From: Candidatus Mediterraneibacter norfolkensis | Lineage (GTDB): Bacteria; Bacillota; Clostridia; Lachnospirales; Lachnospiraceae | Direction of reading: 5' to 3' | DNA: 50,932 nt | NCBI GenBank assembly: GCA_019120615.1 | Contig: DWUT01000100.1 | Coordinates: 1 to 50,932 of the forward strand | Shown here: in pieces, positions 6,150 through 50,006 of the stretch | How positions within the stretch are numbered: position 1 is the first letter of the stretch | How the letters are laid out: each line of letters opens with the position of its first letter | Program-made: the position numbers and the translations under genes | Notes under the pieces: model-generated | Told to the model about the DNA's origin: nothing | The model's input: only the letters and a program-made list of their open reading frames with translations | Databases searched by the model: none

Positions 6150-6345
6150 GGTCTCAGTTCACACCTAACCGCCGCCCCATGCGCACTCGTCGCGCTGACG
6201 CGCTCCAGTCCCGCGCTTCGCGCTAAGACTGCTTATGTGGGCGGCGGTTACGAGTTCCACTCGTACTCGGGAATAGGGAAATGCCCCTTACATGCAAGCA
6301 TGACACTGCATTTCCCTATTCCCGAGTACGGTGTGAACTGTAACC
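6150..6345 (-). repeat. Structured interspersed repeat element, full copy A (terminal inverted repeats plus nested hairpins)
   Basis: TIR ggtctcagttcacacc (6150-6165)/ggtgtgaactgtaacc (6330-6345), 14/16 complementary; perfect 12-bp IR taaccgccgccc (6166-6177)/gggcggcggtta (6239-6250); hairpin acgagt-tcc-actcgt; perfect 21-bp IR gtactcgggaatagggaaatg (6263-6283)/catttccctattcccgagtac (6309-6329) with loop containing atgcaagcat. Confidence 0.85.
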
Positions 6346-6347
6346 GG

Positions 6348-7148
6348 TCATTGTCCCAGAATGTATTCCTCCAGCGTGCCCCCCTGCTCCGTGATCTCTT
6401 TTGCCGCCTCTTCTCCTACATAGCGATAGTGCCACGGTTCATAGATGATCCCCGTTATATCTGCCTTTTCCTCGGGATATCTCAGGATAAACCCATACTC
6501 CCAGCAATGTTCCATCAGCCATTTCTGTTCGTCCGTATCCCCCTGTCTGTCATCCAGTTCTTCATATTCAGAAGAAATGATATCCACTGCAAGCCCGGTG
6601 GCATGTTCACTGGCTCCTGGTACCGCAACGGATTTTTTTGTCTCATCATACGCATTCAATGGTGTGTATCCCCGGCTGATCCAGTCCTGCATCGTCGAGT
6701 TGAACACATCCCTCTGCTTGTCATAGGACCTGTACGCCGATGCAACGTACATGCTGAGCCCCGCTGCAGCCCCGTCGTCAAGCATATTCTGAAGACTTTC
6801 CGCAATTCGTGAATCCACTGACCTCTCGGAGTCGATCTCCGTTAGTTCCGCCGGCGTATACTCTGTGTCAAGGGGATGGCCTTCGTTCACAAGCGCAAGG
6901 CACCATCCGTCCGAATCTCCTGCCAGCAGTTCTGCGCTGTCCGTCACAGCGTCCACCTTGACCGCCTGCAGTGCCAACTCATCATTTGCCTGTTTCAGTT
7001 GTGCATTTTCCGCAGCGAGTTCTTCCTCCTGTCTCTCTATGACAGTCCTGGCTGCCACAAAGGTCACAAGCACTCCTGCCGCCAGACCAAACCCTGCTCC
7101 TGTCAGCAGTGTCCGTCTTGTTTTCGCTCTCTTGCTCTCACGTCTCAT
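6348..7148 (-). CDS. D-alanyl-D-alanine carboxypeptidase, VanY/M15B family, membrane-anchored
   Basis: 'SAYRSYDKQRDVFN...VAVPGASEHATGLAVDI...WLMEHCWEYGFILRYPEEKADITGIIYEPWHYRYVG' contains M15 zinc motifs (SEHxxGxAVD, EPWHYRYVG); N-terminal hydrophobic helix. Confidence 0.92.
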   Translation of the reverse strand: MRRESKRAKTRRTLLTGAGFGLAAGVLVTFVAARTVIERQEEELAAENAQLKQANDELALQAVKVDAVTDSAELLAGDSDGWCLALVNEGHPLDTEYTPAELTEIDSERSVDSRIAESLQNMLDDGAAAGLSMYVASAYRSYDKQRDVFNSTMQDWISRGYTPLNAYDETKKSVAVPGASEHATGLAVDIISSEYEELDDRQGDTDEQKWLMEHCWEYGFILRYPEEKADITGIIYEPWHYRYVGEEAAKEITEQGGTLEEYILGQ

Positions 7149-9511: not shown

Positions 9512-9576
9512 TGAACTGGAGCGCGGCAGCGGGACGAGTGCGCACGCGGGCGGCAGTTAGGTGTGAACTGGGACCA
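9512..9576 (+). repeat. Partial copy (3' half) of the structured repeat element
   Basis: 'actggagcgcggcagcgggacgagtgcgcacgcgggcggcagttaggtgtgaactgggacc' closely matches the reverse complement of 6150-6213 ('actggagcgcgtcagcgcgacgagtgcgcatggggcggcggttaggtgtgaactgagacc'), with a few substitutions and one indel. Confidence 0.8.
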
Positions 9577-48669: not shown

Positions 48670-49698
48670 ATGAACGACAGAATCACACTGGACTACGGAA
48701 GCGGGGGACTGAAAACTTCAGAACTGATCGAGTCCCTGCTGGTCCCCGCTTTTGACAATCCGGCACTCTCTCAGCTCGGAGACGGAGCGCTCCTCGATGG
48801 AAGTAAAAAACTGGTATTTTCTACCGACAGCTTTGTCGTATCTCCCTGGAACTTCCCCGGCGGAGATATCGGAAAACTCTCGGTCTGCGGCACGGTAAAC
48901 GACGTGTGCATGGCAGGCGGCATTCCGAAATACTTAAGCCTGTCCTTCATTCTCGAGGAGGGATTTCTCTTCTCCGACCTCCGGCAGATCGTTGCCTCCA
49001 TCGCGGAAGAAGTCAAAAAGGCAGGCGTATCCATCGTCACCGGTGACACCAAGGTAGTGGACGCCGGAAAAGGCGACGGGATCTATATCAACACCGCCGG
49101 CATCGGATTTCAGCGGACTGATCTTCCCGGGAAAGCTGCCATCCGTCCGGGAGACGATGTGATCGTCAGCGGAACTGTCGGGTGCCACGGCGCCGCAGTC
49201 ATGATGGCACGTTCAGGTCTCCTCAGCGAAGATAACCCACTGCGTTCTGACTGTATGCCCCTGCACCGCATCTCCGCAGCAGCCCTTGACGCTGCCGTTG
49301 CAACTGCCGGCTCAGAAAGCGGCGCGGTCCGGATCCTGCGGGATCCCACCCGGGGCGGCGTCGCCACCACCCTGAACGAATTCACAGAGGGAATGCCCTT
49401 CTCCATCGAACTGAAGGAAAACGAAATTCCCATCGAGCCTGCCGTTGAGGCAGCCTGCGACATGCTGGGACTGGATCCGCTCTACTGTGCCTGCGAAGGA
49501 CGGATGCTGCTCGTCTGCGATCCCTCCGCCACAGAGGACATCCTGGAAGCGCTCCATAACGTCCCCGGCGGCGAAAACGCCGCCCGCATCGGAACCGTCA
49601 CCGAAGAAATGCCCGGCAAAGTCCTCCTGAAAACCCCCATCGGAGGCCGCCGCATCCTATCCAAACTAACCGGAATACAACTACCGAGGATATGTTGA
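48670..49698 (+). CDS. hypE: Hydrogenase maturation protein HypE (thiocyanate-forming, C-terminal PRIC)
   Basis: 'ITLDYGSGGLKTSELIESLLVPAF...DGALLDGSKKLVFSTDSFVVSPWNFPGGDIGKLSVCGTVNDVCMAGG'; ends in PRIC with terminal Cys. Confidence 0.96.
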   Translation: MNDRITLDYGSGGLKTSELIESLLVPAFDNPALSQLGDGALLDGSKKLVFSTDSFVVSPWNFPGGDIGKLSVCGTVNDVCMAGGIPKYLSLSFILEEGFLFSDLRQIVASIAEEVKKAGVSIVTGDTKVVDAGKGDGIYINTAGIGFQRTDLPGKAAIRPGDDVIVSGTVGCHGAAVMMARSGLLSEDNPLRSDCMPLHRISAAALDAAVATAGSESGAVRILRDPTRGGVATTLNEFTEGMPFSIELKENEIPIEPAVEAACDMLGLDPLYCACEGRMLLVCDPSATEDILEALHNVPGGENAARIGTVTEEMPGKVLLKTPIGGRRILSKLTGIQLPRIC

Positions 49699-49865
49699 TT
49701 ACAGCTCACTCGTGAGGCGATGCCCTGACAAATTTATGCTTGCATAAGGATTTGTCGGGGCGTCGTTTCACGAAGGGAGCGCCCGCTCATGAGCAAAGTA
49801 GCTGCGCAGCAGCGGGGAGCACCGCAGGTGCGTTTTGCGAATGGCGCGGGTGAGCTGTAATCAAC
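49694..49865 (+). repeat. Structured interspersed repeat element, full copy B
   Basis: Perfect 16-bp TIR gttgattacagctcac (49694-49709)/gtgagctgtaatcaac (49850-49865); 23-bp stem cgtgaggcgatgccctgacaaat (49711-49733)/atttgtcggggcgtcgtttcacg (49750-49772), four mismatches all G.U compatible; apical loop ttatgcttgcataagg. Confidence 0.85.
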
Positions 49866-49867
49866 CA

Positions 49868-50006
49868 GTCTGCCGTGCAGTAAAAAGAAGCCGGGATGTC
49901 ATATAAGCTCGCTTAAATATGGCATTCAGGCTTCTTTTTAGTATATGGCGGACGCCATACAGCGAGAAGGAGCCGTCAGGCGGATTCGAGCTGCTGCTCG
50001 GCAGAC
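49868..50006. repeat. Adjacent nested inverted-repeat segment containing a terminator
   Basis: Outer arms gtctgccgtgcag (49868-49880)/ctgctcggcagac (49994-50006), 12/13 complementary; internal tatggcggacgccata hairpin. Confidence 0.6.
49882..49939. terminator. Bidirectional Rho-independent terminator between hypE and the convergent gene
   Basis: aaaaagaagcc / ggcttcttttt perfect 11-bp outer stem with extended imperfect inner stem. Confidence 0.8.

Follow-up and report, generated by a model that had tools for sequence, protein, structure and literature searches.

A folded mini-transposon dispersed in gut Lachnospiraceae and its probable mobilisation by IS66-family transposases

The mini-transposons (MITEs) RUP, NEMIS/Correia and ERIC are short, non-coding, intergenic and multi-copy, with inverted ends, and they are presumed to be mobilised in trans; RUP is tied to IS630 and to a TA duplication. 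Hairpin elements of the REP/RAYT or IS200/IS605 kind move as single-stranded DNA, a class in which target duplications are not expected. The IS66 family (PF03050 / NF033517) is autonomous, its elements measuring 1.8–2.4 kb and carrying a transposase gene. Rfam holds Clostridiales-1 (RF01699), listed as a probable biological RNA that is not of cis-regulatory type and has no known role (PMC2864571). Where does the repeat beside a VanY-type gene of Candidatus Mediterraneibacter norfolkensis belong? The window (the whole stretch of DNA analysed, 50,932 nucleotides of contig DWUT01000100.1) holds an element that, judged from sequence comparison, is very probably an IS66-derived MITE: a non-coding unit with 14-bp inverted repeats that would be moved in trans and would duplicate 8 bp of its target. 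Unlike RUP, NEMIS/Correia and ERIC, the two element families described here have other ends and another duplication, and a three-way fold with strong covariation. Neither the review PMC10969869 nor the openly accessible literature searched yielded a comparable IS66-derived MITE from Lachnospiraceae.

The element beside the VanY gene, assigned here to family A, lies at 6151–6344 on the minus strand, is read from 6344 to 6151 and is short (194 bp), without a transposase gene. Its 5' terminal inverted repeat, GTTACAGTTCACAC (6331–6344, minus), has near-identical counterparts (GTTACTGTTCACAC) on IS66-family loci, and its 3' repeat, GTGTGAACTGAGAC (6151–6164, minus), is two bases degraded from an end in GTAAC. 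Between them are a variable long hairpin (6262–6330, minus), with a perfect stem of 21–22 bp and the loop ATGCTTGCAT at 6292–6301 (loop region ..CATGCTTGCATG..), and a GC-rich arm (6165–6250, minus) closed by TAACCGCCGCC / GGCGGCGGTTA with hairpins inside. Folding is strong (MFE −119.3 kcal/mol, z = −11.9, equalled by 0 of 200 shuffles) and the window has two occurrences of the loop where 0.09 would be expected; the hairpin, loop, GC-rich arm and complementary ends described in the sequence-only reading are all there. No T-run follows the hairpin. The host neighbour, outside the element, is a carboxypeptidase gene at 6348–7148 (minus), identified as VanY (PF02557, E 2e-38), with its stop codon at 6348–6350. 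The element does adjoin this stop, at a distance of 3 bp and not the 2 bp first given. What about the target duplication? Its expected place is the 8-bp flank (6345–6352, minus), and no 8-bp duplication directly abuts either end of this copy; an exact 8-mer, CAATGACC, recurs close by, separated from the left end by 1 bp and from the right end by 6 bp, and this displaced pair is a possible target duplication. A third piece in the window, at 9513–9574 (plus), is a truncated family-A remnant with only the 3' arm and 3' end.

The other full element, at 49698–49861 (plus, 164 bp; its inverted repeat reaches 49694–49865, GTTGATTACAGCTCAC..GTGAGCTGTAATCAAC; folding z = −9.9), belongs to family B, which is abundant in Mediterraneibacter and whose arm reads GAGCGCC..ATGAGCAAAG..GCGAATGGCG. 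Are the two full elements copies of the same thing, as first proposed? Loop, architecture and similar ends are common to both, but they represent two sister families, A and B, otherwise alike only at the level of covariance models. The family-B model aligns over the full length of the family-A element in the window (31.3 bits, E 7e-6), and it also matches other element types of the same genome; control loci included in the search gave no match. Because one genome (G017) has hybrid copies combining family-A ends with a family-B body, ends and bodies appear to be exchangeable or of common descent. A further element type in the window's own genome (L018 1179–1355, L019 1502–1670 and L022) has the ends AACTGTGCGGTTG..CAACCGCACAGTT and shares the ATGAGCA / GCGAAT arm; the family-B model finds it at E 3e-6 to 4e-5. 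Elsewhere, family B forms tandem arrays with a unit of about 160 bp (L202, L205, L216 and L223, in G020, G012 and G002). Just after the window's family-B copy, at 49868–49953, an imperfect inverted repeat of 37 nt and its T-run resemble a transcription terminator; in the congener G007, the orthologous copy is followed by the beginning of this sequence. Positions 4–103 of the window hold the bacterial small SRP RNA (RF00169).

By DNA search, family A was matched in 17 of 37 Mediterraneibacter genomes, with at most 16 matches per genome, whereas 24 genomes outside Lachnospiraceae gave no match; the family-B model has matches in 45 of 299 sampled Lachnospiraceae genomes, one genome per genus. Twenty-four full family-A copies align end to end, with ends, loop and arm conserved. 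It had been foreseen that the likeness of loop and end core might vanish as copies were added; both are kept, with the architecture, across dozens of aligned copies. At the VanY locus, where synteny (the next gene) extends to about 30 congeners, the element is present only in the window's genome and, as an internally deleted orthologue, in G007 among the congeners examined, which makes the window copy an old insertion. The proposed comparison of orthologous loci with and without the element succeeded to this extent: most congeners lack it, and their empty sites are too diverged for a base-exact junction.

How do these elements spread? Flanks were compared in 56 copies picked by family-A-like ends, some family-B bodies among them, so the statistic is for the mixed set as a whole. 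Their 8-bp flanks are identical at 0.60 of positions vs 0.27 under the null (z = 13.7), and 18 of the 56 have 8-bp duplications with at most one mismatch, where 0.33 would be expected; other lengths and offsets are far weaker and near chance, save the equivalent frame 1 bp into the ends. Examples from this set are ATGCCCGC, AAGAAGAG, CCACAATG and TCTTCCCC; clear family-B duplications are GTATTTCA (L130), CATTTTTG (L065), TGTTGTGG (L222) and ATTGGAAA (L235). Shorter derivatives that keep only the hairpin, 82 and 95 bp long, are also flanked by 8-bp duplications. At L158, L159, L163 and L168, 20-bp fused ends (GTTACAGTTCACAC(T/C)GTAAC), some with duplication-like flanks, look like deletion footprints of family-A elements. 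Collecting copies, as the sequence-only reading had advised, thus defined 14-bp inverted ends and 8-bp target duplications. A TA duplication of the IS630/RUP kind, prompted by the TA at the ends, was dropped once the 8-bp duplications emerged.

Two transposase families were tested as partner, IS66 and IS256. IS256 (PF00872) was rejected, its loci being without matching ends. The genome G017 holds a 1820-bp element encoding a 485-aa IS66-family transposase (PF03050, E 6e-21; NF033517, E 2e-42, below that model's cut-off), with the ends GTAACAGTTCAGCC / GTAACAGTTCACCC and the duplication CGAAAAAA. A 567-aa relative from the same genus sits between GTTACTGTTCACAC-type ends with the duplication GCCGGAAT, and at least 10 further Lachnospiraceae IS66 loci have GTAACAGTTCAGCC or GTTACTGTTCACAC ends. 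These end variants pair up with the mini-elements: GTAACAGTTCAGCC is that of family B, GTTACTGTTCACAC that of a family-A variant, and the family-A end in the window is one base from the IS66 end. Exact 8-bp duplications flank the IS66 loci L251 (CGAAAAAA) and L271 (CAAAGCCC, where the ends differ slightly); L252, L253 and L257 have one as well, GCCGGAAT in each case, and are taken as a single event. Some IS66 loci with both ends have no exact 8-bp duplication. The terminal 14 bp or so and the duplication length are the same in IS66 elements and in families A and B, and no likeness to the folded core was noted beyond the ends. The IS66 element of G017 directly adjoins a family-B mini-element (L238 1–141). 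At L157 (G007:C232:46809-48043), a candidate with inward-facing family-A-like ends 1.2 kb apart, the contents read as cobalamin/sirohaem-type genes and not as a transposase.

Since the mini-elements have 8-bp duplications and IS66 genes lie between the same ends with 8-bp duplications, the former are MITEs, probably mobilised in trans by IS66. A transposase acting in trans had been suggested from the outset, and IS66-family genes with the same ends, which may well act in this way, do exist. The transposase would bind the 14-bp ends, and the element would be inserted into a target of which 8 bp are duplicated. But where is the enzyme? Neither PF03050 nor an L238-type sequence has a match in the window's own genome (G000, a draft of 317 contigs) or in several MITE-rich relatives. 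The enzyme is therefore inferred from relatives. It would belong to the past, be rare, or be missing because the assemblies are fragmented; a MITE can persist after its enzyme is gone.

The body of the element is predicted to form a three-way fold of an end helix, a long hairpin with a CUUG-type loop and the GC-rich arm. The family-B fold has 51 consensus pairs, 25 of them with changes on both sides, and 96.5% of cells paired; that of family A has 67 pairs, 17 with double changes, and 97.1% paired (0 of 500 shuffles for each). In slid controls pairing falls to 30–45%. As the structures derive from the same alignments and the copies are related, absolute pairing is favoured; more weight attaches to the excess of double changes. 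The first reading had the stem sequence wholly different between copies, which is right between families; within a family the differences are compensatory pair changes. The diverged but paired stem is genuine covariation. For a conserved loop on such a stem, selection or repair working on the hairpin of a mobile lineage is a better explanation than a gene-specific 3' element. Is it RNA that is selected? Over pairs predicted on both strands, the loop strand of family B has 29 G-U against 7 A-C, which suggests selection on RNA or a single strand in this family only; the same comparison in family A gives 20 against 16, no asymmetry. These strand-symmetric pair sets replace an earlier count (99 vs 34) that included conserved wobble positions.

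A plain MITE leaves the strength of this fold conservation unexplained. Most likely the fold would be maintained for its importance to the lineage of these elements, whether as RNA or as single-stranded DNA. The stems of a MITE could also be kept perfect by mutation, through template-switch correction of quasi-palindromes, without selection on the fold. Long perfect palindromes with replaced sequence are the outcome of such repair, and the family-A mismatches have no strand asymmetry. However, double changes also occur in the inner helices of the GC-rich arm, the loop and the ATGAGCA..GCGAAT positions are fixed, which points to a conserved fold, and the family-B asymmetry is at odds with repair. 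As a full account this is rather unlikely, and template-switch repair remains a partial alternative for the stem.

Could the elements be genes for a structured small RNA that acts in trans, in line with the Rfam listing of the related Clostridiales-1? Neither copy in the window reaches the gathering threshold of any Rfam family. The family-B copy at 49694 aligns with RF01699 over its full length at 37.8 bits (E 3e-5), a weak match below the gathering score of 48 bits; the family-A copy at 6151 has no RF01699 match, and a sister of it (L010) scores 32.1 bits. In the reverse direction, the family-B model finds RF01699 copies only at E 4e-4 or worse. Alike are the long hairpin with its GCUUGC loop, the CGCC..AUGAGCA..UGCGAAU arm, the end helix and the dispersed, multi-copy occurrence; the fold and motifs of RF01699 (the GCUUGC loop and AUGAGCA / GCGAAU) are present in family B and weak in family A. 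RF01699 differs in its ends (GATGCC..GACATC) and in having 7-bp and not 8-bp duplications. The one-contig genome G028 has at least 38 matches to RF01699 proper, and 20 copies there, of 193–196 bp, have those ends and 7-bp duplications (identity 0.86 vs 0.47 null). Because its dispersed copies of about 194 bp have such duplications, RF01699 itself behaves as a MITE or mobile repeat, with ends unlike those of families A and B. Together with the weak family-B match, this means that a similar folded core occurs in mini-transposons with different ends. Homology of the core is likely for family B and less sure for family A. A small RNA, compatible as it is with a MITE, would account for the end-to-end match, the Rfam listing, the strong covariation of both families and the G-U excess of family B. 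Target duplications, many dispersed sites and deletion remnants are nonetheless those of mobile DNA, RF01699 has duplications of its own, and family A lacks the asymmetry; from the sequences, such a role is unlikely. A bolder reading, advanced tentatively and on balance doubtful, is that the Clostridiales-1 RNA core is a module carried on several mini-transposon families (an 8-bp, IS66-type one and a 7-bp type) under selection on the folded RNA strand, a selfish or domesticated RNA whose transposition system would have changed more than once.

Why, then, do both window copies sit within 5 bp of a stop codon in sense orientation? The sequence-only reading took this placement for a functional 3' element or an insertion preference at stop codons. 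Hairpins this strong could affect transcripts, and a cis-acting terminator, mRNA stabiliser or attenuator kept at stops in sense orientation would give that arrangement. True of the two window copies, it is not general. Of 75 distinct loci (simple ORF calls, gene borders approximate), 15 have the copy beginning no more than 30 bp from a sense stop and 11 have the mirror arrangement (p = 0.56); at 19 a start codon lies 30 bp or less from the end of the copy, and the upstream gene is sense at 28 and antisense at 47. The site is most often a divergent intergenic region. Relative to genes, position and orientation look unselective, the outcome that the proposal's own author had named as speaking against it. 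With the VanY locus free of the element in most congeners and no T-run 3' of the hairpin, a cis-acting 3' element is highly improbable, and the placement at the VanY stop codon is a coincidence of ordinary intergenic insertion. A REP/RAYT- or IS200/IS605-like element moved as single-stranded DNA, for which hairpin architecture and intergenic dispersal might speak, is scarcely credible against clear terminal inverted repeats, 8-bp duplications and ends equal to those of IS66 loci.

The element beside the VanY gene thus belongs to a non-coding mini-transposon that is dispersed in gut Lachnospiraceae, with IS66-family transposases as the most likely agents of its movement. For this abundant and largely unannotated repeat, the ends, the target duplication and a probable transposase family can now be given. 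Clostridiales-1, a 'small RNA' family in Rfam, shows the behaviour of a mobile repeat, and the annotation of these loci should change. What keeps a covarying, RNA-like fold in a mini-transposon becomes a testable question.
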